A DNA stretch of 64,000 nt from assembly GCA_029263395.1 (NCBI GenBank), contig JAJCXO010000023.1, forward strand, positions 1-64,000. The letters run 5' to 3'. How positions within the stretch are numbered: position 1 is the stretch's first letter; every line of letters starts with the position of its first letter. Below the pieces are notes generated by a model that saw only the letters and a program-made list of their open reading frames with translations, was not told the origin of the DNA and searched no databases. The position numbers were made by a program, and so were the translations under genes. Origin of the DNA: Acidobacteriota bacterium. Lineage in GTDB: Bacteria; Acidobacteriota; Thermoanaerobaculia; Multivoradales; J023. Shown here piece by piece: positions 8,966-28,707 of the stretch.

Positions 8966-9446
8966 TCCATCTCTCCCAATCTTGGGTTAGGTCGACTGCC
9001 AGGGCTCGGTCTGCCAGGCTTGATCTGCTGCCAGGGTTACGGTCCACTCACTGGCTTCGGATCCATCAATCAAGTTTGGATCTACCGCCTAGGCCAAGTC
9101 AACAGACGAGACGCCTCCGCAGACGGGGCAGCCCCGCGGACGAGGCATCACCGCGAGCCAATCCGGCCACCGACAGGTCAGCCGACAGAGTTCAAGTCCA
9201 CTGACAATTGAACTCGCAATCGGCATGGCCGCGGCTGCGGCAACGTCGCAGCACAACGCTCACTTCCGCGCCCCCGACAAGAGCAGGTTTTTCCCATGCT
9301 GCCTCTGCTATGCCTGTAGCGGCGAGCAGGTCCGCCAGCGCGAGGCGCATGAACAAATCCTCCGTCAATTGAAACTCCTAGGCAGTCATTCCCGTTGTTC
9401 CTAGTGAACACTGAAAGTACTGCCCCCACCACTGCAGGAGACCTCG
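8966..9446. other. Divergent regulatory region
   Basis: This 481-base gap lies between the leftward nitrilase and the rightward permease and should hold both promoters. Three direct copies of CTGCCAGG occur at 8996, 9011 and 9028, close upstream of the nitrilase start, and might be regulator binding sites. No believable gene is present. Confidence 0.4.
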
Positions 9447-11894: not shown

Positions 11895-12054
11895 CAACTG
11901 AGTTCCCTGGCTGAGCTTCCTCCAGGCTGAGCTTCCTGGCTGAGCTCCCGGCGGCGGCTGCCTGGCGGCGGTTACAATGGCATGGCTCGCAGGCAAACTA
12001 GCCTGGCGCCATGCCTGCCTGTCCGTCCCCATCCGTCATCGAAGGAGCCCTAGT

Positions 12055-13830
12055 ATGCAGCGCGTCTCACACCTTGGCCTGTGGATCGTTCTCTTCGTCT
12101 TGGTTGCTTGCTCTAGCCAAGATTCAGCAACCTCCTCCGATGCCAACGTCCAGTTGCAGGCACTATTCGAGCGCGAGTGGGACTTCCGAACCCGTGAGGA
12201 TCCCCTCCTTGCAACCTCGGTTGGGCGCCACGAGTTCAACCATCTGCTGCCTTCGGTCACCATAGGCGACTTCGAACGGCGGGTAGCGCGCTGGCGCGAG
12301 CTGTTGACCGAGCTCGACGCGATCGATCACTCCCAACTCGACGCGTCGAACCAGGTCAGCGCCGATATCTTTCGAAGTCAACTCGAGAACTTCATCGAAG
12401 ACTTCGAGTATGGCGCGTATCAAATCCCGCTGACCGTCGATGGCGGTTTCCACATTGCCTTCGCTCGTCTGCCGGCCAGTGTACCCCTCCGTACCCGCCT
12501 GGACTACGAGAACTACATCGCCCGTCTCGAGGCCTTTCCGACCTACGTCGAACAGCATATCGAGCATCTACGGGCTGGCCTGGAACGCGGAATGACCCTA
12601 TCGCGGGTGGTACTCGAGGGTTATGAGGTCACGATCGAGTCCCATGTCGTCGACGATCCCAGCACCAGCCTGTTTTATCGTCCGTTCGAACGCTTCCCCG
12701 ACACTGTGCCGGAAGATGCTCGAGACGGCCTGCGGGAAATGGGCACCCGAGCCATCCAGGAACAAGTGGTCACGGGCTACCGCAATTTCCTCGACTTCAT
12801 GATGAACGAGTACATCCCCGGCGCTCGCACCACCCTCGGCGCGTCTGAGCTGCCGGACGGGGATGCCTATTATGCCCAGCGCATCCGCACCTTCACGACC
12901 CTCGATCTGAGCGCCGACGAGATCCATCAGTTGGGTCTCGAAGAGGTTGCCCGGATCCGTGCCGAGATGCTGGAAATCATCGAACAAGTCAACTTCGAGG
13001 GCAGCTTTACCGACTTCTTGACGTTTCTGCGCACCGATCCGAGGTTCTATGCCACGTCTCCCGAGGAGCTGCTCAAGGAAGCCGCGTACATCGCCAAAAC
13101 CATGGACGGCAAGCTGCCAGCGCTGTTCGGAACCCTGCCACGGCTACCCTACAGCGTGGCCCCGGTGCCTGATCACCTCGCACCCAAGTACACCACCGGC
13201 CGCTATGTCGGCGCACCGGTGGGCGGTACTCAGCCGGGCTACTATTGGGTCAACACCTACGCGCTCGAGAACCGCCCTCTGTACGTGCTGACCGCCCTCA
13301 CCTTGCACGAAGCGGTCCCCGGTCATCACCTCCAAATCTCGCTGTCCCAGGAGCTCGAGGATCTACCACCGTTCCGGCGGCATTCCTATTTATCGGCGTT
13401 CGGTGAAGGTTGGGGCCTGTATTCCGAATGGTTGGGTTTGGAAGCTGGCCTTTATGAAGACCCATATCGCAATTTTGGTCGCCTGACTTATGAGATGTGG
13501 CGCGCCTGTCGCCTGGTCGTCGACACTGGCCTCCATGCCAAGGGCTGGACGCATCAACAAACCCTCGACTACATGGCCAGCAACACCGCACTATCGCTGC
13601 ACGAAATCCGCACAGAAACCGACCGCTACATCTCCTGGCCAGGTCAGGCCTTGGCCTACAAAATTGGCGAGCTCAAGATCAAGGAGCTGCGACGCGAGGC
13701 CGAGGCCAAGCTCGGCGATCGCTTCGATGTCCGTGAGTTCCACGACACCGTGCTGAAACATGGCTCGGTGCCGCTGCAAGTATTGGAGACTGTGGTGCGG
13801 AGCTACATCGACCGCGTCGCGGGTTCATAA
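12055..13830 (+). CDS. DUF885-family metallopeptidase-like lipoprotein
   Basis: The 591-residue product has a lipoprotein signal (MQRVSHLGLWIVLFVLVAC, lipid Cys19) and then the DUF885 fold. The zinc motif HEAVPGHH lies at residues 418-425 and the conserved downstream 'GEGWGLYSEWLG' and 'RLVVDTGLHAKGW' are present. Family members are zincin-type peptidases whose substrates are mostly unknown. The ATG at 12055 is preferred over 11977 because AAGGAG lies just upstream and the lipobox then sits at the right distance. It follows the permease by 160 bases. Confidence 0.85.
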   Translation: MQRVSHLGLWIVLFVLVACSSQDSATSSDANVQLQALFEREWDFRTREDPLLATSVGRHEFNHLLPSVTIGDFERRVARWRELLTELDAIDHSQLDASNQVSADIFRSQLENFIEDFEYGAYQIPLTVDGGFHIAFARLPASVPLRTRLDYENYIARLEAFPTYVEQHIEHLRAGLERGMTLSRVVLEGYEVTIESHVVDDPSTSLFYRPFERFPDTVPEDARDGLREMGTRAIQEQVVTGYRNFLDFMMNEYIPGARTTLGASELPDGDAYYAQRIRTFTTLDLSADEIHQLGLEEVARIRAEMLEIIEQVNFEGSFTDFLTFLRTDPRFYATSPEELLKEAAYIAKTMDGKLPALFGTLPRLPYSVAPVPDHLAPKYTTGRYVGAPVGGTQPGYYWVNTYALENRPLYVLTALTLHEAVPGHHLQISLSQELEDLPPFRRHSYLSAFGEGWGLYSEWLGLEAGLYEDPYRNFGRLTYEMWRACRLVVDTGLHAKGWTHQQTLDYMASNTALSLHEIRTETDRYISWPGQALAYKIGELKIKELRREAEAKLGDRFDVREFHDTVLKHGSVPLQVLETVVRSYIDRVAGS

Positions 13831-13854
13831 AGCCATCAACTTACCAGCCCGTCT

Positions 13855-14080
13855 GATTAGATCCCATCCAATAACACGCCGAGAGCTCGGTCGGCCTTGT
13901 GGGCTACGCCGCAGCTCCAGAACTCGCCGGATCTGTTACGAGAAGCCTAAGCCCTTTTGGTGCCATCGGATAAGAGATGCGAACAGGTGCGAAGCTTAAA
14001 CATGCTCGCTGCTTGCTCGCTCCACAAGACCTCCCTCGCTGAGCCGAAAATGGCAAAACGAGACGGGATCCAACTAAAGT
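13855..14080 (+). repeat. Structured inverted-arm repeat, copy B
   Basis: This is the partner of 7736-7964 in opposite orientation. Arms nest correctly around the centre: outer GATCCC (13860-13865) with GGGATC (14065-14070), then CTCGGT (13886-13891) with the wobble-compatible GCTGAG (14038-14043), then CTTGTGG (13896-13902) with CCACAAG (14022-14028). The copy starts 24 bases after the DUF885 stop codon and ends 40 bases before the stop of the oppositely read aminopeptidase. A distant partial resemblance to one end (TAGATCGCATCCAATAC) is seen at about 32132-32148. Confidence 0.7.
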
Positions 14081-14119
14081 TCGGTCTCACTGGCGACTGT
14101 TCTCACGAACAGACCGGTC

Positions 14120-16768
14120 TCATTGAACAGGCGCATCACCGGTCAGATAGCGGGCCACTGCTGCTCCCTCACGGTCGCGAAGTGACACGCAGTCGTGGAC
14201 CTGCTCCGCAACTTGCTTGACCTGCTTCATGGCATGCGGGCCGTGGTCAGCAAAAAACTTCTTGGCATGCTCGAGGCGCTCTAGCGAACATCCGCCTGCA
14301 AAACGGGGCAGGAAGCCAATAAACATCGGCGGCATACGGCTGGACAAGGCCTCCAAGTTCTCGATCAACCACCGATAGGTGGTCTCGCGGCCAGCAGCAG
14401 TTGCGGCGATCGTACGACTGGGGACAATCAACTCGTTGGGGCGTAACTCCCCATGCAAAGCGTAACTCAATGCCATCTGTTGGATCTCGGGGGTCCGGAA
14501 GGACCCGAGGGCCGAGAGAAAGAGACGGCGGCCAACCGGCGACTCTGCGGCCTCCAGTCGACGGACATATGTATCGAAGCGTTTGCGATCACCATCGATC
14601 GCCGCCAATTGCAGGGCGACTCCGGCCAGCGCAGGATCGATCGAGGATGGATCTTTCATGAAACTGTCCGCCATGGCGCTGGCTGCAGCCAAGACTTCTG
14701 GGTCGCGACCTTCACGCCCCAGCCAGTCATAAAGCGTCGGTCGTACCAAGGAGACCGCTTCCGATTCGCCCGCAACCTTCTGCATGCCGAAACGATCAAA
14801 CGCCGGCCGTAGAGTCCGTCGCACATAACCGGCAAACGCGTCCTCGAGATCAACCGGCACCAACGCACCTTTGACCCGTTGCAAGGCTCCCACCAACGAG
14901 CTGATGACCAGAGGCTCGGCATCGTCCGCCAACTCCCCGAGCACTCCGAGGTATTGATCACCATGGATCGAGCCGGCGTCGAGCAACGCCGAAACGTTGC
15001 CGATCAGCTCGACGCGCTCCCGCGGCGTCAGCACCGAGCTGGCATCGGCGGCGAGAGCTCGCAGCGGCGCCGCCGGCAGCCGCCACCGGTAATAACCGTC
15101 GGCGGAACCGTTGGGAAACAGCCAAGCCGGCGCATCATCCCCCAAGTCGACAACCTGGACCGCAGAGTCGAGCAGCACGGTGGTTTGCTCGATACCATCA
15201 GCCGTTGGATACTTGAGAGTGACCGGGATTTTCCAGGTTTTGTCAGGGCTCGGGGAGCCATGGTTCCGGAACCGCTGCTGAGTGAGACGAATCCGGCCGC
15301 CCTCTAGCACTTCGATATCGATCAACGGAAACCCAGGCTGATCGGTGAAGGTTGCCATCGCGGCAGACGTTTGTTTGCCCGAAGCCTTGTCGAGGGCACG
15401 CCACAGGTCAGCAGCCACCGCATTCTTCCAGGCATGCTCGTTGATGTAGTCCACAACACCGCGGCGAAATACGTCGGGTCCAAGCCACTGTTCGAACATG
15501 CTGAGCACGGCCCGGCCCTTTTGATAGGTCAGGCCAAGTCCGTCCAGTAGATTCTTCGCCGAATCGACCGGCTTGCGGATCGCCCGGGTGGTCGACCGTG
15601 CGTCTTGCCGCAGCACCCCCTGGGCCCGCTCCACGGCACTGACATCGAGTCCAAATTGGGGCCAAACCTGGTGCACCACCTTGTCGCCCATCCAGGTGGC
15701 AAACGCTTCGTTGAGCCATAAGTCGTCCCACCACTCCATCGTCACCAGATCCCCGAACCACATGTGAGCCAACTCGTGCGCGATGACGCCGGCCTGGCGG
15801 CGACGCTGGCTGACCGAGGCGGAGTTTGCATCGAGCAACAGGATTCGGTCGGCATAGGTCACGGCGCCAGGGTTCTCCATCGCACCTGGCCAGAATTCCG
15901 GCAGGGCCAGGAAGTCGAGTTTGGCGTAGGGGTAAGGGCGGCCGAAGTACTCTTCGAGTGCCTTCAAGATCGCTGGCGTCGCCTCCCTGGCGAGTTGAGT
16001 CAGATGGCTCTGGCCTTGTACGGTGATCAATCGCCCAGGAACACCCAAACCCGGCATCGGTACCGCTTCGAGGGGACCAGCGGCAACCGCCAGCAGATAA
16101 CTTGGCAGGGGCGGGGTCTTGTGGAATACCGTGGTGCGCCAGCCGTCGGCGACGGTCGCCTCGAGCTCCGGGGTGTTGGTGATCGCCAGGTGAGCTTCGG
16201 GGACTTTCAGCGTCATCTGATAGGGGAACTTGAACCGGGGCTCGTCCCAACAGGGGAAGGCTTCGCGAGCGTCGTCGGCCTGAAACTGACTGAAGACATA
16301 GCCGACACCATCTTTTTCCATGCGATAGAGGCTGATCGCAGTGGTATCGAACGGATTGGTGAAGTCGATCCCCAGAGAATAAGCCCCTGGCACCAACGGC
16401 TCATCGGCAGTAACCCGCACCACTTCGTCGCTTTCAGCCTCGTGGCGCACGGCGACTTCGCCAGTCGCCGAACGCAGGACCAACTTGCCCAAGGTGAGAC
16501 CCTCGGAGTGCAACCGAAAATGATCGGTGGCACGCTGCACGTCGAGCTCGATGCGAACCGAACCGCGGTAGTCGCTTTGCCCGGCATCAATCTCGAGTTC
16601 GATCGCCTGGAACGTCGGGATCACATCATCCCCCAGACGAAAATCGGCGACAGCTGACATTGGCAGCAGCGCTGAGGCAACGGCAATCAACAAGCTCCGC
16701 CACAGACAGGTCTGGCTGGCAGTGCTCCGCCACAAGCTGGGTACGAAGGACTCGGCCACAAGATGCAT
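14120..16768 (-). CDS. M1-family aminopeptidase
   Basis: The protein has 882 residues with the full gluzincin M1 signature: GAMEN at 295-299, HELAH at 331-335 and the third zinc ligand Glu354 in 'WLNEAFATW'. A hydrophobic segment near residues 25-42 ending in SAVADF is a signal peptide, so it works in the periplasm or outside. The remainder fits the M1 layout of beta saddle, catalytic domain and an ERAP1-like helical C-terminal domain. An AGGAG site precedes the ATG by seven bases. It should trim N-terminal residues from peptides. Another exported peptidase-like gene (DUF885) is read toward it from the other side. Confidence 0.92.
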   Translation of the reverse strand: MHLVAESFVPSLWRSTASQTCLWRSLLIAVASALLPMSAVADFRLGDDVIPTFQAIELEIDAGQSDYRGSVRIELDVQRATDHFRLHSEGLTLGKLVLRSATGEVAVRHEAESDEVVRVTADEPLVPGAYSLGIDFTNPFDTTAISLYRMEKDGVGYVFSQFQADDAREAFPCWDEPRFKFPYQMTLKVPEAHLAITNTPELEATVADGWRTTVFHKTPPLPSYLLAVAAGPLEAVPMPGLGVPGRLITVQGQSHLTQLAREATPAILKALEEYFGRPYPYAKLDFLALPEFWPGAMENPGAVTYADRILLLDANSASVSQRRRQAGVIAHELAHMWFGDLVTMEWWDDLWLNEAFATWMGDKVVHQVWPQFGLDVSAVERAQGVLRQDARSTTRAIRKPVDSAKNLLDGLGLTYQKGRAVLSMFEQWLGPDVFRRGVVDYINEHAWKNAVAADLWRALDKASGKQTSAAMATFTDQPGFPLIDIEVLEGGRIRLTQQRFRNHGSPSPDKTWKIPVTLKYPTADGIEQTTVLLDSAVQVVDLGDDAPAWLFPNGSADGYYRWRLPAAPLRALAADASSVLTPRERVELIGNVSALLDAGSIHGDQYLGVLGELADDAEPLVISSLVGALQRVKGALVPVDLEDAFAGYVRRTLRPAFDRFGMQKVAGESEAVSLVRPTLYDWLGREGRDPEVLAAASAMADSFMKDPSSIDPALAGVALQLAAIDGDRKRFDTYVRRLEAAESPVGRRLFLSALGSFRTPEIQQMALSYALHGELRPNELIVPSRTIAATAAGRETTYRWLIENLEALSSRMPPMFIGFLPRFAGGCSLERLEHAKKFFADHGPHAMKQVKQVAEQVHDCVSLRDREGAAVARYLTGDAPVQ

Positions 16769-16989
16769 AGTACGCTCCTAAAGTCTGGACTGGGGACGGA
16801 CGAACAGACCATGGTCTATCGAAGACCGCCATTTTGCAAGCGCGAACACACTCGCTCCATGATCTCTCCATGGTCGCTCCACAAAACTGCGGTCGAGCGA
16901 GTGTCCAAGACCCATACGAGTCGACGTTATAATCGTAGGTATCAGCCGTAGGCACCTGCACCCTCCAGAGCATCGACGAGAGGATCCGC
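16769..16989 (+). promoter_or_regulatory. Divergent promoter region upstream of the three-gene operon
   Basis: A TATAAT hexamer lies at 16928-16933, about 57 bases before the start of the asparagine-synthetase-like gene, a fair -10 box although no good -35 is seen. A perfect 12-bp palindrome AGACCATGGTCT lies near 16806-16817, with a second CCATGGTC about 60 bases further on. These could be an operator pair serving the divergent genes. No reading frame is supported here. Confidence 0.35.
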
Positions 16990-18357
16990 ATGACCCAGAC
17001 AACCCCGCAAGCCGAGCGCCAGACAGAATTGAAATACACCCCGGTGGCCAGCGTCATCCAGTTGATTGATCCCGACAGTCAACAGATCCTCAACATGGAT
17101 CTGGCCGCCGCCGAACGCTGCCTGCTGAGCAACGAGCCCGGCGATGTGCTTGGCATCGAAGGTTCCTTCGCGCTGCTCGCCCGCGACGGCGAACAGATCC
17201 GCATGGCCCGCAGTCTCGATCGGCCGATGCGCTATTTCCTGGCCAAAGCCGAAGCCGGCCCAGTGCTGATCGTCGCTGAGCGTATCGACGAAATCCGCCG
17301 TTGCCTCGAAGCGCACGGTTACCAGGACCAGTTTCATCCCACCTACACCCGGATGATTCCCGCTCATCACGTGACGACTATTCGGCTGGTCGGCTGCCCG
17401 GACCCCAATCCGGTTTATCGCCGGTTTTTCGATCCACCGCGGGCCACTCTGCCGGCGGACCTCGACGTGATCGGCGAACGCTACGTCTCGGCGTTGGCGG
17501 CAGAGGTGCGAGCCTGGCTCACAGCACAAGACGATGATCAACCGATCGGCGTGTTGTTCTCGGGTGGTGCGGATAGCGGCGCCACATTGTTGACGATTTA
17601 CCATCAGCTGCTCGAGCTCGGCCAGAGCCCATCCCGGCTCAAAGCGTTTACGTTGGCGGTTGACGGCGAAGGCCGCGACGCGACCCAAGCCCGGGAGTTC
17701 CTGCGCCGAGTGGATCTCGAGATGCTCGGCGAAACGATCGAGGTTGCATCCAGCGAGCTCAATCCGCTGGCAGCAGTCGAAGTGATCGAAGACTACAAGC
17801 CGCTCGACGTGGAGTGTGCCACGGTCGCCATGGCTTTGCTCGCCGGTATCCGACGTCGCTACCCCGAGTGGCGATTGTTGGCGGACGGTGATGGCGGTGA
17901 CGAGAATCTCAAGGACTATCCGATCGAGGAGAATCCCGAGCTCACGATCCGCAGTGTGGTCAACAACTCCATGTTGTATCAGGAGGGCTGGGGCGTTGAT
18001 GCCATCAAACACAGCTTGACCTTCTCCGGCGGATTCAGTCGCGGCTGTGTGCGCACGTTCGCTCCTGCCCGGCACCTCGGCTTCGCGGGTTTCAGCCCGT
18101 TTACACGGCCAGCAGTGATCGCCGTCGCCGAGGCCATTCCGTTCGCCGAGCTGACCCAAGGTGATCACCAAAAGCTCTACGCTCTCAAGGGCGAAGTACT
18201 GCGTCGCGGGATCGCCAAGCTCACTGGGATCACCATGCCAACGTTTCCAAAATGCCGCTTCCAACACGGCGCGGTCTCTGAAGCCACCCTGTTTGAGCGA
18301 TTCGCAACCTCTCCGAACGCCTACCGACGGCATTTTCTGCAGCTGAATGCCAGCTAG
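16990..18357 (+). CDS. Asparagine-synthetase-like ATP pyrophosphatase, glutaminase-dead
   Basis: This protein has 455 residues. The C-terminal part has the PP-loop 'VLFSGGADSGATLL' (SGGADS at 191-196) of asparagine synthetase B-type enzymes and a variant second motif 'LADGDGGDENLKDY' (298-310) in place of the usual SGxGADExFxGY. The N-terminal 140 residues look like a shortened class II glutaminase fold but begin MTQTT, so the essential Cys2 is missing. Ammonia from glutamine is therefore unlikely, and the enzyme probably adenylates a carboxylate for condensation with another amine or nucleophile. It overlaps the next gene by 11 bases. I infer a role in a small-molecule or modification pathway; plain asparagine synthesis is improbable. 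Confidence 0.75.
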   Translation: MTQTTPQAERQTELKYTPVASVIQLIDPDSQQILNMDLAAAERCLLSNEPGDVLGIEGSFALLARDGEQIRMARSLDRPMRYFLAKAEAGPVLIVAERIDEIRRCLEAHGYQDQFHPTYTRMIPAHHVTTIRLVGCPDPNPVYRRFFDPPRATLPADLDVIGERYVSALAAEVRAWLTAQDDDQPIGVLFSGGADSGATLLTIYHQLLELGQSPSRLKAFTLAVDGEGRDATQAREFLRRVDLEMLGETIEVASSELNPLAAVEVIEDYKPLDVECATVAMALLAGIRRRYPEWRLLADGDGGDENLKDYPIEENPELTIRSVVNNSMLYQEGWGVDAIKHSLTFSGGFSRGCVRTFAPARHLGFAGFSPFTRPAVIAVAEAIPFAELTQGDHQKLYALKGEVLRRGIAKLTGITMPTFPKCRFQHGAVSEATLFERFATSPNAYRRHFLQLNAS

Positions 18358-19300
18358 CAGAACCGAAACTCATCGTATCCGCTCGCTTCGACCGCCCAAG
18401 CCGGCGGTCGACCCCTGGCGCCCGATCGATCAAATGTTAGAGATCGAGCGCCAGCCGGTGGGAACGCCAGCCCAGGTGCTGACGGTGTTTCTGGCCGGCA
18501 GTGAATGCCCATTCACCTGCGTTTTCTGTGACCTGTGGCGCTTCACCCTCGATCAACCGACGCCGCCGGGCGCAATCCCAGCACAGATCGAGCATGCAAT
18601 CGCCAGCGTCCAAGGTGAACTCACAGCCACCACCCACATCAAACTTTACAACGCCAGCAACTTCTTCGATCCCCGAGCGGTACCACCACAGGACGACACT
18701 GAGATCTCAAAGCAACTTGACCGTTTTGCTCAGGTGGTCGTCGAGTGTCACCCGCGGTTGGTCGGTCAGCGCTGCTTGGACTTCGCTGACCGAATCGGAG
18801 GCAAGCTGCAGGTTGCGATGGGACTCGAGACGATTCACCCCGACGCACAACCCAAACTCGGCAAACAAGCAACCCTCGACGACTTCGACGCAGCCGCGAC
18901 GCGGCTCGGCCGGCACGGCATCAGCTGGCGAGCTTTCGTATTGGTAGGAGCCCCGTTCGTGCCCTCCCACGAGGCGGTGTACTGGGCAGTCCGCTCCGTC
19001 GAGTACGCGTTCGACCGAGGTGCCGAACACGTCACACTGATCCCGGTACGCGGCGGCAACGGGGAAATGGAGCGCCTGGCTCAACAAGGCCTCTTCAACC
19101 GGCCGACGCTAGCGCAGTTGGAAGAGGCTCTCGAGCGTAGTCGCGATCTAGGCTCAGGGGTTGTCACTGTCGACACTTGGGACCTCGAAGTGCTCTTCGA
19201 TTGCCTCAGCTGTGGCCCGCAGCGTATCCGCCGCCTGGAACACTTCAACACGAGCGGCACTCTGACACCCCGGCCGGTTTGCACCGCGTGCGTCAGGTGA
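18347..19300 (+). CDS. Radical SAM protein
   Basis: The protein has 317 residues. The cluster-binding motif 'CPFTCVFC' (Cys54, Cys58, Cys61) is the radical SAM CxxxCxxC. Downstream 'HIKLYNASNFFDPRAVP', 'VVVECHPRLVG', 'VAMGLETIHP' and 'VTLIPVRGGNG' follow the order of strands in an Elp3/RaSEA-like radical SAM barrel. The C-terminus has two further Cys pairs (286/289 and 312/315), suggesting a zinc knuckle or second iron-sulfur site. The gene starts inside the end of the asparagine-synthetase-like gene and is followed 13 bases later by a flavoprotein gene, so the three are one transcript. The substrate is unknown; resemblance to the archaeosine enzyme RaSEA is by motif layout only. Confidence 0.8.
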   Translation: MPASRTETHRIRSLRPPKPAVDPWRPIDQMLEIERQPVGTPAQVLTVFLAGSECPFTCVFCDLWRFTLDQPTPPGAIPAQIEHAIASVQGELTATTHIKLYNASNFFDPRAVPPQDDTEISKQLDRFAQVVVECHPRLVGQRCLDFADRIGGKLQVAMGLETIHPDAQPKLGKQATLDDFDAAATRLGRHGISWRAFVLVGAPFVPSHEAVYWAVRSVEYAFDRGAEHVTLIPVRGGNGEMERLAQQGLFNRPTLAQLEEALERSRDLGSGVVTVDTWDLEVLFDCLSCGPQRIRRLEHFNTSGTLTPRPVCTACVR

Positions 19301-19313
19301 AGGTTGGGTATCG

Positions 19314-20885
19314 ATGCACAAGACGTTTGACGTCGTCGTTGTCGGGTCAGGATTTGCAGGCACAATCTTGGCGCGGGCGCTCAACCGCCGTGGCTCGAGG
19401 GTGTTGCTCCTGGAACGTAGGCAACACCCCCGCTTTGCGCTCGGCGAATCCACCACACCTCTCGCCAACTTCGCCCTCGAACGCCTGGCTAAACGGTACG
19501 ACCTGCCAGATCTATTCCACCTATCGTCGCACGGTCGCTGGCTCCAACACCTGCCAAGTCTGCGCCGCGGGTTGAAGCGGGGTTTCACCTTCTTCCGCCA
19601 TGAGCCCGGTAAAGCCTTCACTTGTTCACCAACCAACAACTCCCGTTTGATGGTTGCCGCCAGCCCTGACGAAGAAATTGCCGATACCCACTGGCTGCGA
19701 CAGGACGTGGATCACCACCTGGTGCGCTGCGCGATCGCCGAGGGTGTGCACTACCTCGATCGGGCCGAGCTCACCCAGGCTGACTTCAACGACCACGGCG
19801 CCAGCCTGGAGATCGAAACCCAGGCAGAGCGCCTCCGCGTCAACACCGGCTACCTGGTCGACGGCAGCGGCCCCGACGGTTTCCTCGCCCGCTCGCTAGG
19901 GATTGAGAGACGCATCCATCTTCCGATCGACAGTGGCCTCTTGTTCGCTCACTTCGATGGCATCCGTCCTTGGGATGACATCGTCCGGCTAACACCCGGG
20001 CCTTACCCCCACGAGCACGCCGCGGTCCATCATCTGCTGGCAGAAGGCTGGATGTATGTGCTCCCGTTTGATCACGGGACGGTCAGTGCAGGTATCGTCT
20101 TGCGACGGGACAAGGTCTCAGAACGCAGCACGGTCTCACAGACTGATGTCCTCCTGCAGAACGATCCAGCAACCGTCTGGCAAGATCTGCTCAGCCGCTA
20201 TCCAAGCCTCGAGGCTCAATTCGCCAACGCCAAAACCTCGGGTATCCGTTATCTACCTCGGATCCAACACCGCCTGGAACGAGCGGCCGGCTCACGTTGG
20301 TTCTTGCTACCCCATACCTATGCCTTCTACGACCCGATGTTCTCTACCGGCATGGCTTGGAGCCTGCTCGCGGTCGAGCGCCTTGCTACCCTTCTCACCG
20401 GGGAATATGGCGATCCGACACAATACGATCAGTTGTTGATGGCGGAAGCGGATCAAATCGAGCGCCTGATCGAAGCGGCGTACCTCGCCATGCAAAACTT
20501 CGAGAGCTTCACCGCGGTCAGCCTGCTTTATTTTGCCACCGTGAGCTTCGTCGAAGTGCAGCAACGGCTGGATCTGACGCCTGCACCCGAAAGGCGCCCG
20601 ACGGCCTGGGCATCATTCTTGGGTGCAGACGATAGCGAACGGATTGCGCTGTTCGAAGCCGCCCGAGAGCGTCTTCGAACTAAGGCCGCCGGGGCTGATG
20701 CAAGAACCTTCCAGCGCTGGATCGTCGAGCAGATCGCACCGTTCAATATTGCCGGCCTCGGCGATCCGTCGCGGGCCAACCTCTACCCTGTCGATCTCGA
20801 CGTACTCGTCGAATGTGCATCACGTCTCGGCCTGAGCCGCAACGAGCTGCGTTCGTCTCTACCGCAACTCCGTGGCCCGGCGTAG
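19314..20885 (+). CDS. Halogenase-like FAD-dependent oxidoreductase
   Basis: The protein has 523 residues. It opens with a Rossmann FAD motif 'VVVVGSGFAGTILARAL' (GxGxxG at 11-16) followed by 'GESTTP' at 44-49, a hallmark of flavin-dependent halogenases and their relatives. 'DGSGPDGFLARSLG' (183-196) and 'YDPMFSTGMAWS' (339-350) are the later FAD-binding elements. The halogenase WxWxIP motif is replaced by 'GWMYVLPFDHG', so chlorination is doubtful; oxidation, reduction or hydroxylation of the operon's product is more likely. It is the third gene of the operon with the ATP pyrophosphatase and radical SAM protein. There is no signal peptide. Confidence 0.75.
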   Translation: MHKTFDVVVVGSGFAGTILARALNRRGSRVLLLERRQHPRFALGESTTPLANFALERLAKRYDLPDLFHLSSHGRWLQHLPSLRRGLKRGFTFFRHEPGKAFTCSPTNNSRLMVAASPDEEIADTHWLRQDVDHHLVRCAIAEGVHYLDRAELTQADFNDHGASLEIETQAERLRVNTGYLVDGSGPDGFLARSLGIERRIHLPIDSGLLFAHFDGIRPWDDIVRLTPGPYPHEHAAVHHLLAEGWMYVLPFDHGTVSAGIVLRRDKVSERSTVSQTDVLLQNDPATVWQDLLSRYPSLEAQFANAKTSGIRYLPRIQHRLERAAGSRWFLLPHTYAFYDPMFSTGMAWSLLAVERLATLLTGEYGDPTQYDQLLMAEADQIERLIEAAYLAMQNFESFTAVSLLYFATVSFVEVQQRLDLTPAPERRPTAWASFLGADDSERIALFEAARERLRTKAAGADARTFQRWIVEQIAPFNIAGLGDPSRANLYPVDLDVLVECASRLGLSRNELRSSLPQLRGPA

Positions 20886-20944
20886 CGGAAGACTATCGAT
20901 ATACTGGTCTTGAATTACTGTCTTGAGGAACTGCTAGATAGACT

Positions 20945-20958
20945 GCTGTTCGAACAGC
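20945..20958. promoter_or_regulatory. 14-bp perfect palindrome upstream of DUF2007 gene
   Basis: GCTGTTCGAACAGC reads the same on both strands and lies 25 bases before the start codon at 20984. Its size and position fit a dimeric repressor operator. It is not a canonical LexA box (the CTGT and ACAG halves are too close). No regulator can be assigned. Confidence 0.35.
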
Positions 20959-20983
20959 TCACCCCGGATCCGAGAGGAGAGAC

Positions 20984-21364
20984 ATGTTCTGTCCCAACTG
21001 TAAAACCGAGTATCCTGACGGCACCAACCGCTGTTCCAACTGCCAGGTGGCCTTAGTCGCGGACACGCCGGAGACAGAGGATCATACCGCGACACCCTAT
21101 GCGATGATCTTCGAGACTTCAGAAGTCGACGTTGTGCCGGTGATCAAGTCACTCCTCGACAGCGCCGAGATCCCATATGACACCAGCGGCGAAGCGATGA
21201 TGAACCTATTCCCCTCCGACATGCTGGGCAACATGATGGGGCGCCCAGGTCGGGAGATTCGTTTTCATGTCCCGGAAGATCGTGCGGAGGAAGCGAAAGC
21301 ACTCCTCAAGGCGCAACCCGTAGATACCCCGGAATTGCGTCCAAACGACGACTCGGATCTCTAA
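20984..21364 (+). CDS. Zinc-ribbon DUF2007 protein
   Basis: This is a 126-residue protein. The N-terminus 'MFCPNCKTEYPDGTNRCSNC' is a four-Cys zinc ribbon (Cys3, 6, 17, 20). The rest (FETSEVDVVPVIKSLLDSAEIPYD ... FHVPEDRAEEAKALL) matches the DUF2007 putative signal-transducing domain. Such proteins are widespread, cytoplasmic and of unknown function. A GGAGAG ribosome site precedes the ATG. It sits after the three-gene operon with its own palindrome upstream, so it is probably transcribed separately. Confidence 0.75.
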   Translation: MFCPNCKTEYPDGTNRCSNCQVALVADTPETEDHTATPYAMIFETSEVDVVPVIKSLLDSAEIPYDTSGEAMMNLFPSDMLGNMMGRPGREIRFHVPEDRAEEAKALLKAQPVDTPELRPNDDSDL

Positions 21365-21374
21365 ACACCTGAAA

Positions 21375-21405
21375 GGCCGCACGCAGCCCACACGCTCGCG
21401 CGGCC
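21375..21405. terminator. Hairpin between convergent genes
   Basis: GGCCGC at 21375-21380 can pair with GCGGCC at 21400-21405, between the stops of the convergent DUF2007 and bactofilin genes. There is no T-run, so it would be at best a weak or factor-assisted bidirectional terminator. Confidence 0.3.
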
Positions 21406-21437
21406 GCGGTTGCTATCGTATGAACCCTTGAGTTCAG

Positions 21438-21833
21438 TTAGGACTGGCGCTTTTCCTTGAAGTTTGTCTGAGGCGCCTTGCCCTGGCCACCCATCCGAAC
21501 CTGCCCTTCAAAGAAAGAACCCTCGGCGATCGCAACAGTCTTGGCGGAGAGATCACCCTCGACTTTGCAGTTGGAGCGCAACTCCGCTTTGTCCTTGGCG
21601 TGAATCGTACCTTCGACGTTGCCTTCGACAACGATGTTGGTCGCTACGATCTCGCCACCGACTCGACCACCCTCGCGGACCCAGAACAGACCATCCGTCC
21701 CCGCTTTGCCTTGGATCGAGCCCCAGACCTCGATCGGCGCCGACCCAGTGATCTCACCCTCAACGTGGATTCCTTTTCCGATCACAGTCGAAGCGGTCGA
21801 AGATTGATCTGTAAAACGGCGATTATCGGCCAT
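21438..21833 (-). CDS. Bactofilin (polymer-forming cytoskeletal protein)
   Basis: This 131-residue protein is mainly a bactofilin right-handed beta-helix: short glycine-punctuated turns such as 'STVIGKGIHVEGEITGSAPI', 'VWGSIQGKAGTDGLFWV' and 'VVEGNVEGTIHAKDKAELRS'. Short polar tails flank the core (MADNRRFTDQSS and QTNFKEKRQS), as is usual. Bactofilins polymerise without nucleotide and organise envelope growth or polarity. An AGGAG site precedes the ATG. No M23 peptidase partner is next to it, unlike in many genomes. Confidence 0.9.
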   Translation of the reverse strand: MADNRRFTDQSSTASTVIGKGIHVEGEITGSAPIEVWGSIQGKAGTDGLFWVREGGRVGGEIVATNIVVEGNVEGTIHAKDKAELRSNCKVEGDLSAKTVAIAEGSFFEGQVRMGGQGKAPQTNFKEKRQS

Positions 21834-21915
21834 CGGTTCTCCTCTGTCTCAAAGGTTGTCTGATGATCGTAGCACGGTGCGCGTCCTGATGGGTCGCCGA
21901 TTTCTTCCGGGCTTT

Positions 21916-21935
21916 GAGGACCCCTTACGGTCCTC
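21916..21935 (+). promoter_or_regulatory. Inverted repeat upstream of kynureninase
   Basis: GAGGACC (21916-21922) and GGTCCTC (21929-21935) form a perfect 7-bp stem with a six-base loop, about 40 bases before the kynureninase start and in the gap shared with bactofilin. It could be an operator or a leader hairpin; no T-run follows. Confidence 0.35.
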
Positions 21936-21974
21936 GACTTGACCTCTAGCAGACCCGGTCAATAGGGTGCGGTC

Positions 21975-23225
21975 ATGTTCGACTCCTCACCCATCACCCG
22001 CGAAACCGTCGCAGCCCTCGATCAACAGGATGTCTTGGCGCCCCTGCGAGACAACTTCGATCTGCCTGAGGGCCTGCTGTACTTCGACGGCAACTCGCTT
22101 GGCCCACTGCTCCATGACAGCCGAGAGCGCGTCGCGGAGACTCTACAACAGCACTGGGGGAGGGACCTCATCCAGTCATGGAATCGCCACGGTTGGATTG
22201 ACCTCCCGCGCCGGGTGGGCGCCAAAATTGCCCGTCTGATCGGAGCGCAACCAGACGAGGTTATCGTCAGCGATTCGACTTCCGTCAATCTCTACAAGCT
22301 GTTGGCGGCAGCCCTCGAGCTGCGGCCCGATCGATCGGTCATCCTGTCGCAACCGAGTCAATTCCCCACCGATCTCTACATGGCTCAGGGCCTCGCCGAG
22401 CTTCGGCACCCACGACCCGAGCTGCGGTTGGCCGAAGGCGACAACCTGCTGAGTGCTCTCGACTCCGACGTGGCGGTGGTCAGCCTTAGTCACGTGGACT
22501 TCAAGACGGGGGAACGCGCCGACCTCCAACGCATCACCCAGGCGGCCCACAAACACGGTGCGCTTGTACTCTGGGACCTCTCCCACAGCGCGGGGGCCAT
22601 GGACGTCGGCTTGGCAGCCGCCGATGCGGACCTGGCCGTCGGTTGCACCTACAAATTCCTCAACGGTGGACCAGGTGCCCCCGCCTACGTCTATGTAGCG
22701 CGGCGGCTGCAAGACCGTGCACAGTCTCCACTTTGGGGCTGGTTTGGACATCAAGATCCGTTCGCCTTCGACACCCAGTATCAGCCGGCCACGGGCATCG
22801 ATCGTTTCCAATGTGGAACGCCACCGATTCTCAGCTTGGTAGCGGTTGATGCGGCACTCAACCTCTTCGAACAAGTTGAGCTTTCTCAGATCCGGCAGAA
22901 ATCCGTGCACCTCGGCAATCTCTTGATCGCCTTGGTTGAACAACAATGCCCCGGTTTTGACCTCACCCTCGCCAGTCCGCAGGACGCCAGCATCCGTGGC
23001 AGCCAGGTGTCCTTACGCCACCCAGCCGGTTATCAGATTATGCAAGCGTTGATCGAACGCGGCGTCGTCGGCGATTTCCGTGCCCCCGACATCCTTCGCT
23101 TTGGGCTGACGCCGCTGTACCAACGATTCATCGACGTCTGGAAAGCGGTCGAGGTACTACGGGACATTCTGGAGCACCGCTCCTGGGATCAACCCGAGTT
23201 CGAGCGTCGCGGCAAAGTGACCTGA
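21975..23225 (+). CDS. kynU: Kynureninase
   Basis: The 416-residue protein is a PLP enzyme of fold type I that cleaves kynurenine to anthranilate and alanine (EC 3.7.1.3) in tryptophan breakdown. Diagnostic stretches include 'YFDGNSLGPLL' near the N-terminus, 'WDLSHSAGAMDVGL' with the cofactor Asp, and 'GCTYKFLNGGPGAPAYVYV' with the Schiff-base Lys. 'RFQCGTPPILSLVAV' and 'RFGLTPLYQRFIDVW' complete the family pattern. No tryptophan dioxygenase or formamidase gene lies in the window, so the rest of the pathway must be elsewhere. The ribosome site is weak (AGGGTG). Confidence 0.9.
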   Translation: MFDSSPITRETVAALDQQDVLAPLRDNFDLPEGLLYFDGNSLGPLLHDSRERVAETLQQHWGRDLIQSWNRHGWIDLPRRVGAKIARLIGAQPDEVIVSDSTSVNLYKLLAAALELRPDRSVILSQPSQFPTDLYMAQGLAELRHPRPELRLAEGDNLLSALDSDVAVVSLSHVDFKTGERADLQRITQAAHKHGALVLWDLSHSAGAMDVGLAAADADLAVGCTYKFLNGGPGAPAYVYVARRLQDRAQSPLWGWFGHQDPFAFDTQYQPATGIDRFQCGTPPILSLVAVDAALNLFEQVELSQIRQKSVHLGNLLIALVEQQCPGFDLTLASPQDASIRGSQVSLRHPAGYQIMQALIERGVVGDFRAPDILRFGLTPLYQRFIDVWKAVEVLRDILEHRSWDQPEFERRGKVT

Positions 23226-23284
23226 ATTACCGCTAGACTCGTTCTTGGTCACGCGATCTCCGGCACCCGGTCTCCGCCACCCGG

Positions 23285-23698
23285 TCAAGGCGAGGGCGCA
23301 AGGACCGCCATAACCAACAACCGCTCGTCACTGTTGTTGCGAATGCCATGAGGCACCCCCTGCGGAGCCACCATAATCTCACCGGCCCGCATATCGAGCT
23401 CGCGGCCTTCGAGCAGAAATAGTCCGTGCCCGGAAACTACGTAATAAACCTTGTCCATATCCTCGTGGGTGTGCAACTTGTGCTCTTGCCCGACCTCGAA
23501 GGCGTTGAGCCCCACCAGCATGCGCTCCGAATGGAACAGCGTCGCCTTGCCCATCTTCTCGGATCGGTAGACGGCGTGCTCTTCTGGTCGCATCACCATG
23601 ATGCGAGGCCCAGCCGTAGGGTCGCTGGACACCGGCACGATGCCCGTTTCCTCTTCGTTGAACGGCAAGTCGTATCCACTACGGTTCCGATCGATCAT
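23285..23698 (-). CDS. Cupin-domain protein
   Basis: This is a protein of about 137 residues with one cupin barrel. Motif 1 is 'VGQEHKLHTHEDMDKVYYVVSG' in part (His-x-His, then Asp in place of the usual Glu) and motif 2 is 'APQGVPHGIRNN', giving a likely metal site. The ATG at 23698 follows a GGAAAGGGGG ribosome site; a TTG ten codons upstream is less likely. It may bind or convert a small molecule. It lies beside kynureninase in convergent orientation, so a link with that pathway is only suggestive. Confidence 0.75.
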   Translation of the reverse strand: MIDRNRSGYDLPFNEEETGIVPVSSDPTAGPRIMVMRPEEHAVYRSEKMGKATLFHSERMLVGLNAFEVGQEHKLHTHEDMDKVYYVVSGHGLFLLEGRELDMRAGEIMVAPQGVPHGIRNNSDERLLVMAVLAPSP

Positions 23699-23751
23699 CA
23701 CGCCCCCTTTCCGGGAAAACAAGCCCAAATTCTACCAGACCCCGACGTGAC

Positions 23752-24444
23752 CTAGCGAAGATCTGCTGCCAGCCTGAAGCCGTAGTCGCTGTAACGCATG
23801 TGTGGTGGGATCGAAGACCGGGCGGCACAACGGCTCACCTTCACCGCATGCCGCCAAGCACCGCCGCGTGATGCGCGTCGACGTCCAGTTTCGGGGCCTT
23901 GCGGGTCAGTATCTGGTGATCTGGAATAATAGTCCGCGTCATACCAATCGGCGCACCACTCGTGCACGTTCTCCCCGAGCCCCAGGAAGCCCCACGGGTG
24001 GCGGGACGGGTAGGCGTCGACAACTTCTGGCCCGTCCTGCCAGCGCACAGCATAATCGGGTAGTGACTCCGGCGGATCGTCCCCCCAGGAGTAAAGCACA
24101 TCACGCCCTGCCCGAGCCGCCAGCTCCCACTCGGCCTCGGTCGGCAACCGGACCGTTTCTGCAAGTTGACCGCTGAGCCAACGACAGTATGCGACGGCGT
24201 CGTCCCACGACGGACCGACCGCTGGTTTCGTCGAACCGGCGAACTCGGGTCCGTCCCAGAACGGCGGCGCTGAGTGGCTCTGAGCTTCGAGGAAACCTTG
24301 GTACTCGCCTCGAGTAACCGGGGCCCTCGCCAACCGAAAGGCGCTGACCGTCACCTCATGGGGTGGGTTCTCGTTGGTTTTTGGGCCGCCCCCCATCCTG
24401 AAGCGGGTGGCAGGCACATCGATCCAGTCGGGGGTAGAAACCAT
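23752..24444 (-). CDS. SUMF1/FGE-domain protein lacking the catalytic cysteines
   Basis: The 230-residue protein is a formylglycine-generating-enzyme (SUMF1) domain: 'LARAPVTRGEYQGFLEA', 'LPTEAEWELAARAG', 'GLGENVHEWCADWY', 'SRGGAWRHAVKVSRCAARS' and 'YSDYGFRLAADL' occur in the usual order. True FGE needs two Cys just before the final RCAAR; here those positions are Val and Ala, so sulfatase activation is unlikely. It has no signal peptide. The gene begins 30 bases after the stop of the receptor kinase on the same strand, suggesting one transcript and a role in the same signalling unit, perhaps as a binding domain. Confidence 0.8.
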   Translation of the reverse strand: MVSTPDWIDVPATRFRMGGGPKTNENPPHEVTVSAFRLARAPVTRGEYQGFLEAQSHSAPPFWDGPEFAGSTKPAVGPSWDDAVAYCRWLSGQLAETVRLPTEAEWELAARAGRDVLYSWGDDPPESLPDYAVRWQDGPEVVDAYPSRHPWGFLGLGENVHEWCADWYDADYYSRSPDTDPQGPETGRRRASRGGAWRHAVKVSRCAARSSIPPHMRYSDYGFRLAADLR

Positions 24445-24474
24445 GACGACGCAGAGTCTACAGTGGCAAAAGGC

Positions 24475-26757
24475 CTACTGCGTTCCGATCTCTGCTGCCG
24501 CTCGTACTTTCTTGAACGCCTCAATGCGAGCGAGCGCTTCTCTAGCCTGGCGGGCGTTGGATCCTGTTTGGGCCTCGATCACCGGGTGGCTGTGAATTAG
24601 CAACGGCTCGGCCTCATCGAACCTGCCAAGAGCTGTCAAGCACTCCCCAAGGACGCTCTCGGCATCGGCGATCTGCCAATTCTTGAAGTCCTTCTGCCTG
24701 ATCGACAAAGATGTCTCTGCTGCAGCCAACGCCCCCTCATAATCGCCCCTGGCCAACAGCACGGGTGCCAAGTTCCTCAGAACATGGGCAACTCGCCCAT
24801 CATCGGGTCCATATCGAGTGCGAAAGATCTGCAAAGCCTCGTTGTAATCCGCCTCGGCAGCGGCAAACTCACCCCGCAGCTGCTGTAGGAAAGCTCGATT
24901 GTTGAGCGCCAGCCCTACCTCGTTGGAGCCTGAACCCAGCAGACGCTTACGAATCTCTAAACTCTCACGACTCAGATGGTCAGCAGACTCAAAATCGCCC
25001 GTGTTTTGATAGAGCACACCAAGATTGTTTAATGTCAGGGCAGTCTCCAGCGACTCTCGACCATGAACTCTGGTTCTCAGTTCAAGCGTCTCCAAGTAGA
25101 GTTCCTCCGCCTCTTGATACTTACCCAAAGTCTCGAGGACCTCTGCCAAGTTGTTCATTCCTCGAATCACCGAAGGATGCTGCTCGTCGATCAAGCGGCG
25201 CTTCATATCCAGTGCTTCACGGAACAACACTTCGGCTGTTCTGACTCCCCCCTGGTTTTGCAGTATCGAAGCCTGATCGTTGAGGATAGTGGCAAGCTTG
25301 AGGTCATCGACATATAGCCTCAGCTCATTGTGGAAGTCGCCAGCGAATCCAGGGACTTCACCTGCTTCAGGGTCGAGTGTATGGAGGCGCTCCATCAGGT
25401 CTGCAAGCGATTCAGAAATATGGCGTTCGTGCGCCGCGAGTTGGCGCTCTCGCTCAGCCTGAGTCTGTGAGACACCCCAGCCTATTCCGGAAAGCCCCGT
25501 CAATAGCACAGCTCCCAGCATGAAGAGCCGCATTTTGTGACGGCGGAAGAACTTGGCAGTCTGGTAAGCCAGGGTCCCCTGCCTAGCCAAAACAGGCAGC
25601 CCGTCTAGATGGCGCCCAATATCTTCCGATAACTGCTCGACCGAGCCATACCGATCTTTTGGCTCCTTACGTAAAGTCTTGAGCACTATGCTGTCGAGAT
25701 CACCTGTCAATCGACGGTGCAGGGCTTTAGGGTCACCTTCACGAGTCTCACTAACCGACTCGGGCGTGAGCGCTCCTACTTTACCTCCCCTGCTGAACTC
25801 GTCAGTGGCGAGAACCGCATCGCTGGGTTTTGTCGGATCCTCCTCCTGAATGGCCTGGAATAGACCACTCATTGAATGATCCCGCAGCCGATAAGGCTGG
25901 TGTCCCGTAAGCAGCTTGAATAACAGGACTCCCAGCGAATAGATATCGCTCGAAGTGGTAATCGCTTCACCTCGAACTTGCTCGGGGCTGGCGAACGGGG
26001 GTGTCATGGGTCCGGCGCCCGCGACTGTCAGCAGTGGCAACGTCGGAGTCTGGGTTGACAGCTTCTCGGATTCCAACAGCTTGGCGATACCAAAGTCCAA
26101 CAGCTTCGGTTCGGCGCCTTCAGTGACCAAAATATTTCCTGGTTTGAGATCACGATGTACAACCAAGTTCTGATGCGCAAAATGGACCGCTGAGCACACT
26201 TTGCGGAACAACTGTAGGCGTTCACGAGTGGAGAGTCTCCGATCGTCGCAATAACGATCGATGGGCTCTCCTTCGACCCTCTCCATAACAAAATACGGAC
26301 GGCCATCCCCAGTCGTACCGCCGTCGAGAAGCTTGGAAATGTTGGGGTGGTCCAGGTTTGCAAGGATCTGCCGTTCATGCTCGAACCGACGAACGATCTC
26401 GTCGGTATCCATCCCTCGCTTGAGGATCTTGATGGCCACTGACTTTTCGAAGTCATCAGCACGCGATGCTAGGTAGACACTGCCCATGCCGCCGCTGCCG
26501 ACCTGATGGCGGATGTTGTAGGATCCAATCCGGCCTTCAGACACTGAATCTGCGGGTCTCTCGGCATGCAGCGAGAAGACTGGCTCTTCTATGAAGGTCT
26601 CCGCATCTTCGGCTCCCGCGAGCAACGAACCGACCTCTTCCTTCAGCTCCGGTTTACCGGCGCATACCTTGTCCAGAAATGCAGCCCGCTCGGCCGCTGC
26701 AAGATGCAACGACTGATCTACAACGATCTGGACTTGCTCCCAAAGCTCTGGTGACAT
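24475..26757 (-). CDS. PknB-type Ser/Thr kinase with TPR sensor
   Basis: The 760-residue protein has a short helical N-terminus, then a Hanks-type kinase domain: glycine loop 'VGSGGMGSVYL', Lys110 in VAIK, 'HRDLKPGN' at 201-208 and DFG at 221-223. A single transmembrane helix (MRLFMLGAVLLTGLSGIGWG) lies near residue 405-425. The C-terminal 330 residues are tetratricopeptide repeats with 'AEELYLETLELRTRVHG' and 'ALTLNNLGVLYQNTGDF' type units. The kinase is cytoplasmic and the repeats periplasmic. It is the sister of the kinase at 37225-39801; both are downstream of an ECF sigma gene. An unusual acidobacterial-type insert with Ser/Pro residues sits between the activation loop and the APE-like motif. 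Confidence 0.92.
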   Translation of the reverse strand: MSPELWEQVQIVVDQSLHLAAAERAAFLDKVCAGKPELKEEVGSLLAGAEDAETFIEEPVFSLHAERPADSVSEGRIGSYNIRHQVGSGGMGSVYLASRADDFEKSVAIKILKRGMDTDEIVRRFEHERQILANLDHPNISKLLDGGTTGDGRPYFVMERVEGEPIDRYCDDRRLSTRERLQLFRKVCSAVHFAHQNLVVHRDLKPGNILVTEGAEPKLLDFGIAKLLESEKLSTQTPTLPLLTVAGAGPMTPPFASPEQVRGEAITTSSDIYSLGVLLFKLLTGHQPYRLRDHSMSGLFQAIQEEDPTKPSDAVLATDEFSRGGKVGALTPESVSETREGDPKALHRRLTGDLDSIVLKTLRKEPKDRYGSVEQLSEDIGRHLDGLPVLARQGTLAYQTAKFFRRHKMRLFMLGAVLLTGLSGIGWGVSQTQAERERQLAAHERHISESLADLMERLHTLDPEAGEVPGFAGDFHNELRLYVDDLKLATILNDQASILQNQGGVRTAEVLFREALDMKRRLIDEQHPSVIRGMNNLAEVLETLGKYQEAEELYLETLELRTRVHGRESLETALTLNNLGVLYQNTGDFESADHLSRESLEIRKRLLGSGSNEVGLALNNRAFLQQLRGEFAAAEADYNEALQIFRTRYGPDDGRVAHVLRNLAPVLLARGDYEGALAAAETSLSIRQKDFKNWQIADAESVLGECLTALGRFDEAEPLLIHSHPVIEAQTGSNARQAREALARIEAFKKVRAAAEIGTQ

Positions 26758-28330: not shown

Positions 28331-28707
28331 CCAACAAAGGTACGCGCAGTGCACTGTTAAGCAGAGATAGCCCCTTAAATCGGGCCGTTCTACTCTCCAG
28401 ATGGTTCAATTCGGCAGAACTGCGAGCACCGGTGCCGCAGATGGCTCCACGGATGCCGATCAGCAACCATGAACCTACCAGCCCTGACACGGTGAGCTTG
28501 TTGCTTTCTACCATATCCATGGCGATGAATCACATTGCGAACGATTACCGCATAGATCGTTAAGAGCGTATGGAGTCTCCGAACGTCTATTGCGCCCGTG
28601 TTAAAGTCAGCCTGTCACAGGCGTAGGATCCCGCAATGCTATCGCCGTGGCGCTCCTGTCGTGACGTGGCCGCCGTGGCGTCACAGTCCCAAGCAACGAG
28701 GTGCTCG
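28331..28707. other. Divergent intergenic region between ECF sigma and cytochrome genes
   Basis: This 377-base stretch holds the promoter sides of both divergent genes. An open frame at 28311-28520 on the minus strand begins ATGGATATGG but has no ribosome site and runs into the ECF start, so I do not count it. No clear promoter box or hairpin was identified. Confidence 0.4.

Follow-up and report, generated by a model that had tools for sequence, protein, structure and literature searches.

Several known systems resemble the locus described here. According to the available text of PMC11298593, lysine attachment to preQ0 by ArcS of Thermococcus kodakarensis requires a complex with RaSEA, a radical S-adenosylmethionine (SAM) enzyme, which turns the resulting lysine adduct into archaeosine. 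A K87A mutant of the halogenase PltM is inactive (PMC6424973, available text), and among the enzymes of the ammosamide pathway are the flavin halogenase Amm3 and Amm20, a putative asparagine synthetase (PMC12715798, available text). We analyzed a 64,000-bp window (positions 1 to 64,000 of contig JAJCXO010000023.1, assembly GCA_029263395.1) from the 10.7 Mb genome of an Acidobacteriota bacterium, in which three consecutive forward-strand genes encode relatives of such enzymes: AS (nt. 16990–18357, 455 a.a.), a PP-loop ligase of the asparagine synthetase type with an incomplete glutaminase domain; RS (nt. 18347–19300, 317 a.a.), a RaSEA/queuine-lyase-like radical SAM protein; and FH (nt. 19314–20885, 523 a.a.), a protein of the flavin-dependent halogenase/monooxygenase type whose nearest solved structure is PltM. 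AS and RS overlap by 11 bases (nt. 18347–18357) and RS and FH lie 13 bases apart (nt. 19301–19313), coordinates that match exactly the open reading frames (ORFs) on which the original prediction, made from the sequence alone, was based.

The three genes are inherited together with their active-site residues intact, and we consider it close to certain (about 0.97) that they serve one pathway. RS matches (E up to 1e-10) came from 30 of the 297 Acidobacteriota genomes searched and AS matches (E up to 1e-20) from the same 30, one AS match in each, while those of FH (E up to 1e-60) are confined to 28 of the 30; five to seven candidates were scored per genome, and divergent copies could be missed. 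AS and RS share the same 17 of 167 genera (Fisher p 8e-42, uncorrected for ancestry). All three genes fall within 1.5-kb flanks of RS in 27 of the 30 genomes, with AS cut by a contig end in one, and in genome G246, where each lies inside a different contig, the set is still complete. Families f19 and f34 each include trio-positive and trio-negative members among the genomes that could be labelled, and in both the set is either complete or absent altogether. Pairwise distances among the 53 of 80 loci (see below) in which all three genes are well covered are correlated between the three proteins (r 0.86–0.91; maximum of 0.25 after shuffling), although common ancestry would partly produce such a correlation, no control gene having been run alongside. 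The original prediction had named rare co-occurrence as grounds for giving it up; looked for in the 297 genomes, this was clearly not what we saw, and its claim that the three genes belong together stands on shared genomes, shared order and correlated divergence.

The trio also extends well beyond Acidobacteriota. A search of genome contigs with the AS alignment returned at least 588 stretches with a relative (E up to 1e-3), the best 80 of which, from records other than the window's own, were kept as loci, and identities are given for those 80 only. By record title (mostly metagenome-assembled genomes (MAGs), with mislabelling or misbinning possible), AS relatives among these best 80 loci come from seven phyla: 29 loci are titled Acidobacteriota, 17 Gemmatimonadota, 13 Planctomycetota, 10 Verrucomicrobiota, three Lysobacterales and Rhodanobacteraceae (Pseudomonadota), three 'Deltaproteobacteria', and one each Fodinibius (Balneolota) and Roseithermus (Rhodothermota), with three unlabelled. 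Among the 80, loci titled as phyla other than Acidobacteriota have an AS identity of 56–69%. The order AS-RS-FH on one strand, sought in a neighborhood search as the original prediction had proposed, is present in 56 of the 80 loci, and two more hold all three genes in another order. Cultivated carriers of a complete trio locus include Acidobacterium sp. S8, Fodinibius sediminis DSM 21194, Roseithermus sacchariphilus, and Planctomycetes bacterium CA13. The remaining 22 lack a complete local trio (AS and RS only in seven, AS only in 15), and nine of them have less than 3 kb of sequence after AS. Fourteen of these 22 genomes were searched, with RS recovered in 13, including L130 and L136, where it already adjoined AS, and FH in 12 (E 6.4e-110 or better); the missing partners were RS in G304 and FH in G301, with FH paralogs only in G305, while L113 appears to duplicate G077, a contig end interrupting its trio. 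Eight of the searched loci have 3 kb or more of sequence after AS but no RS within it; RS turned up elsewhere in the genome for seven of them, and FH likewise for seven. The trio is dispersed in several Verrucomicrobiota and Planctomycetota genomes, with the set kept. Neither AS nor RS had relatives among viral contigs, AS had no match among plasmids and RS none among phages, and RS matched two Streptomyces plasmids at 26%. One of these, pFRL5 of Streptomyces sp. F8 (L205, nt. 11827–24754), carries the distant RS relative (26%) in a biosynthetic-looking cluster that is not the trio and includes a P450, a serine hydroxymethyltransferase, a glycosyltransferase, a carbamoyltransferase, and heptose genes; our guess is that it probably makes a nucleoside or heptose natural product.

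AS appears to be a glutaminase-less synthetase with a predicted fold nearest to those of beta-lactam synthetase and AsnB. It belongs to the Asn_synthase superfamily (PF00733, 30.8 bits, above the gathering score of 21, E 3e-7) but fails the equivalog for glutamine-dependent asparagine synthetase (TIGR01536, 29.2 bits against a cut-off of 267.1). The PP-loop SGGADS read by the original prediction is present at residues 191–196 (nt. 17560–17577, forward strand), and its S191, G192, G193, D195, and S196 are identical in 94/94 distinct relatives drawn from 125 loci, as are 12 of the 15 surveyed positions overall; the others are K421 (93, with one relative non-covering), C136 (93), and H116 (92 of 94). 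The lack of a cysteine at position 2, also predicted, holds for all 18 aligned rows, whose start codons were chosen by script. The first part of the glutaminase (N-terminal nucleophile, Ntn) domain, about 43 N-terminal residues, is absent: the AlphaFold2 model (mean confidence, pLDDT, 81.9; low at residues 308–347) can be aligned with AsnB from around residue 40 onward and with beta-lactam synthetase from residue 44, which leaves out the part of Ntn that would supply the nucleophilic cysteine. The best fold match to this model was beta-lactam synthetase (1m1z; Foldseek E 8e-12; VIA Z 24.4, root-mean-square deviation 3.3 over 348 aligned residues), tied in VIA with AsnB (Z 23.6), with carbapenam synthetase (20.8) and TsnB9 (19.1) lower. 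AS resembles beta-lactam and carbapenam synthetases as a PP-loop synthetase, in a fold predicted over nearly the whole chain, and in that no glutaminase activity is expected of it, but differs from them in its low identity (10–19%), missing Ntn residues, partner genes, and conserved motifs of its own (GCPDP and KRRFQHG).

On profile evidence, RS is related to two radical enzymes of 7-deazaguanine chemistry, RaSEA and queuine lyase. Its best family is RaSEA (TIGR01210, E 4.1e-19), and a profile of 21 RS proteins matched queuine lyase (6p78) in the PDB at E 2.3e-5, the one convincing sequence relative there, with the next match at 0.18. The window's RS taken singly scores below the radical SAM cut-off (PF04055, 25 bits against 29.5), and its place in this superfamily comes from the CxxxCxxC motif, present in 89/89 covering relatives (2/91 non-covering), and from the barrel fold of its model (pLDDT 93.6). 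This putative [4Fe-4S]/SAM motif occupies residues 54–61 (C54, C58, C61; nt. 18506–18529, forward strand), and the remaining core positions surveyed hardly vary, with K173 replaced by Asp in two relatives and H135 by Arg in one. Such conservation of the AS and RS active sites indicates that the motifs are not there by chance. RS differs from queuine lyase (QueL), to which it is 14% identical, in an additional C-terminal region with the two cysteine pairs that the original prediction had likewise picked out (286/289 and 312/315); these are common but not universal, with Cys in 15, 18, 17, and 15 of 21 rows.

FH keeps the apparent machinery of a flavin-dependent halogenase (PF04820, 47.1 bits, cut-off 21). 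Its nearest solved structures are PltM (6bzt, E 1.3e-48) and then tetracycline 7-halogenase (E 1.7e-41), and it shares with PltM/CtcP-type phenolic halogenases the flavin adenine dinucleotide (FAD) fold, GxGxxG, GES[ST], the catalytic lysine, and the STG motif, which has a role in those enzymes. The dinucleotide-binding GxGxxG motif lies at residues 11–16 (nt. 19344–19361, forward strand; across 17 rows G11 and G13, unlike G16, do not vary), and Lys88 (nt. 19575–19577, forward strand), aligned with catalytic Lys87 of PltM, is Lys in 82/82 covering relatives (1/83 non-covering). GxGxxG and GEST had been noted in the original prediction together with the loss of WxWxIP, and the equivalent region indeed reads WMYVLP, within WMYVLPF at residues 246–252 (nt. 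20049–20069, forward strand). Across an alignment of 83 relatives, W246 is kept in all 83, the third motif position is Tyr in 43 and Trp in 40, the Ile has become Leu in 77, and the Pro is kept in 16 and replaced by Arg in 52, giving W-x-[YW]-x-L-[mostly R] in the relatives, or W-x-[YW]-x-L-[R/P] with the retained Pro counted, a clear departure from PltM/CtcP-type enzymes. Given that this region is altered, halogenation cannot be assumed. FH also belongs to the same flavoprotein superfamily as the maturases QhpG, LodB, and GoxB, which act on protein side chains, but falls far below their cut-offs (46, 29, and 34 bits against 240, 400, and 400). All three proteins, then, sit in known superfamilies but fail, or do not demonstrably pass, the defining test of their nearest named family.

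By analogy, the ArcS-RaSEA pair appears to be the best parallel for AS and RS, in that a ligase is paired with a radical SAM enzyme and RS is homologous to RaSEA; AS itself differs from ArcS in having no match to the ArcS families in our Pfam and NCBIfam scans. On this model, which we put forward tentatively and at less than even odds, AS would adenylate a carboxylate with ATP for attack by an amine, yielding an amide as in beta-lactam synthetase, and that amine would have to come from a source other than glutamine-derived ammonia since AS is glutaminase-less. RS would then generate a 5'-deoxyadenosyl radical and cleave a C–N (or C–C) bond in the AS product, such that the pair, like ArcS and RaSEA, would attach an amino acid and remove its carbon skeleton, leaving the nitrogen behind. 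FH, reduced to FADH2, would halogenate or hydroxylate an electron-rich position with the help of O2 and its conserved lysine, either before or after the AS/RS chemistry.

Several points weigh against this reading. Trio RS proteins from eight genomes score 52–107 bits against the RaSEA cut-off of 212, with 0/8 above it, and the window's RS reaches 69 bits (cut-off 212.15); because RS lies so far below, C–N cleavage is reasoning from relatives. Among predicted fold matches, queuine lyase 6p78 (VIA Z 16.9) is tied with HydE (Z 16.6), and Elp3 ranks first in Foldseek. Two genomes, G098 and G176, have AS and RS with only distant FH paralogs and no FH ortholog, so that FH may be a tailoring step; the trio is complete in G055 of the same family (f6). 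The steps, the amide formation, and the order are thus what we infer, while the unity of the pathway is what the genomes display. Of the joint action set out in the original prediction, the part that holds is that the trio forms a unit; its stated order of action on one substrate, a thioamide-like product, and halogenation by FH are not established, and it had overlooked the kinship of RS to RaSEA and queuine lyase, the spread over several phyla, and the tracking with CRTAC proteins described below. Searches of an open-access library for the trio and for its component enzymes turned up no account of it.

The trio has no constant neighbor. Clustering of the flanking genes at the 80 loci revealed no family that recurs at most of them, and among 2,851 ORFs of 20–75 a.a. 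within 2.5 kb of the trio ends, compared by BLAST (which may miss short or diverged peptides), the widest cluster covered 11 loci, all close relatives and partly overlapping other genes. The original prediction that no precursor peptide, nonribosomal peptide synthetase, or polyketide synthase gene accompanies the trio is therefore supported, for constant neighbors, as far as this survey reaches. Because no further gene is constantly linked, the substrate would be either something common to many lineages or a protein encoded elsewhere. A lasso-peptide cyclase role for AS was weighed solely by asking whether a small gene or a protease gene is a constant neighbor, and none is; that this enzyme does not appear in the fold lists excludes nothing. 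Apart from the CRTAC and RnfD-like genes, the additional neighbors that we inspected recur within related genomes; among them is a pair that we take to be tmk- and holB-like, beside the trio in 11 and 8 loci, one of which is titled Deltaproteobacteria (L067; a possibly outdated title).

A protein encoded elsewhere is the core of a second, doubtful though possible, reading, in which the trio modifies secreted FG-GAP/ASPIC-UnbV (CRTAC) beta-propeller proteins or supplies them with a small-molecule cofactor, which would explain why no dedicated substrate gene lies beside it. CRTAC-type proteins combine FG-GAP repeats with ASPIC_UnbV (PF07593), and PF07593 was found in 30/30 trio-positive Acidobacteriota (4–47 matches per genome) against 14/39 trio-negative ones, 9/39 with at least four matches (Fisher p 4e-9; by genus 3e-6), where the 39, of 267 trio-negative genomes in all, comprise the 12 of the window's own class and 27 taken by handle number and are not a random draw. 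Within the window's own class, the contrast is 21/21 trio-positive (4–47 matches) against 4/12 trio-negative genomes with one match each. PF07593 is also present in 48/48 trio-bearing genomes titled as other phyla (2–31 matches), which represent 48 of the 80 loci with the Acidobacteriota and three unlabelled loci left out; this is a prediction borne out rather than a contrast, the trio-negatives having been sampled in Acidobacteriota only. Overall, 78/78 trio-bearing genomes tested encode CRTAC proteins.

The association is also physical in more than one phylum, as is that with an RnfD-like membrane protein, whose gene cluster is represented at 7/80 loci (Pfam checked on one). CRTAC genes occur in the fetched flanks of 17/80 loci, with 10/48 outside Acidobacteriota against 1.3 expected and 9/17 in Gemmatimonadota against 0.36 expected, but the two sides of these comparisons differ in method, expected numbers having been derived from Pfam match counts and genome size and the flanks scanned with a broader profile of our own, built from such neighbors, which can also catch FG-GAP proteins without an ASPIC domain; nor are loci within a phylum independent. 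CRTAC genes, several with the RnfD-like gene, adjoin the trio at L118 (nt. 9334–14807), L139, L141, and L120 and at the Gemmatimonadota loci L070, L073, L075, and L082, with SusC- and SusD-like genes also beside it at L075. The pairing recalls the UnbV/UnbU pair of enediyne clusters.

Against a CRTAC target stand nine trio-negative genomes with 6–39 matches. The dependence is accordingly one-way (the trio implies CRTAC proteins) and may stem from ancestry or lifestyle, either of which could make both common in the same lineages. The profile scan found no CRTAC gene in the 64-kb window, whose genome (G000) holds 47 PF07593 matches. Nor did any residue separate the CRTAC proteins of trio-positive from those of trio-negative genomes in a comparison of partial sets of mixed subfamilies (28 proteins from trio-negative and 30 from trio-positive Acidobacteriota, with 47 from other loci). 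A fuller version, in which the trio makes a new modification or diffusible cofactor through ligation, radical cleavage, and flavin oxidation or halogenation that secreted CRTAC beta-propellers need, perhaps with the RnfD-like protein as a redox partner, strikes us as unlikely. If true, it would to our knowledge be the first biochemical role for bacterial members of the family.

A role in 7-deazaguanine chemistry, with the trio acting on derived bases or on tRNA as RaSEA and queuine lyase do, is more improbable still. The RS relatives of known function both act on 7-deazaguanine derivatives, as the available texts describe (PMC11298593, PMC7694415). RS is found within or just after a fusA-rpsJ-rplC-rplD-rplW-like cluster in some Verrucomicrobiota, directly 3' of the rplW-like gene at L178, L181, and L182 and after the rplD-like gene at L179 (genes assigned by Pfam on L178 only and by BLAST cluster at the other loci); rplB is the usual gene after rplW. 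The distribution of QueC weighs against this role: although 28/30 trio-positive Acidobacteriota exceed a 22-bit cut-off, only 15/30 have a full-length QueC (E below 1e-60), G246 has none, and the other 14 matches (21–27 bits over 45–76 positions) are read as probable other PP-loop proteins. A full-length QueC in only half of the genomes makes a 7-deazaguanine substrate, and with it a preQ0-lysine tRNA role, unlikely, an argument that precursor salvage in genomes without QueC would soften. We also know of no relatives of AS or FH that act on RNA.

Least credible among the chemical alternatives, and in our view highly improbable, is a beta-lactam-type natural product pathway in which AS would form the lactam ring and RS and FH would modify it. 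The AS model matches the fold of beta-lactam synthetase best, but AsnB ties with it to within 1 Z, the trio has no other recurrent pathway gene at its side, and a single AS per genome in 30 genomes with 56–69% AS identity across phyla is unlike a variable antibiotic cluster. Thienamycin clusters, moreover, use cobalamin radical SAM enzymes, while RS is RaSEA-related. That the three genes are neighbors by chance and belong to unrelated pathways, as their dispersal in G246 and in several Verrucomicrobiota and Planctomycetota might suggest, is contradicted by the phylogenetic profile, in which AS and RS keep to the same genomes and genera even where dispersed, and we regard it as negligible. Ammosamide biosynthesis, examined as a match for the trio, is a different system, with a precursor peptide and many other genes and with no RaSEA-like radical SAM partner named in the available text (PMC12715798).

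The closest relative of the window's locus among the best 80 is an Acidobacteriota MAG (L064; AS identity 90%), with the same flanking genes on both sides (76–89% identical). Directly 3' of FH lies a gene for a zinc-ribbon/DUF2007-like protein (nt. 20984–21364) with a weak match to NCBIfam ribbon_DG_selen (31 bits, cut-off 130). A kynureninase gene (nt. 21975–23225) follows in the same orientation, 1.1 kb after FH; it is one whose position is kept in L064 (83% identical) and which is not a constant trio neighbor. Further downstream, an ORF with several CxxCH motifs (nt. 28636–30549) probably encodes a multihaem cytochrome c, as read from its translation only.

With the trio, three well-studied enzyme superfamilies each gain a new subfamily. 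Its near-exceptionless co-inheritance where tested, its occurrence in seven phyla by record title, and its near-invariant active sites point to a product that these bacteria keep. The link to CRTAC proteins, if causal, would open up the function of a family with up to 47 matches per genome searched.

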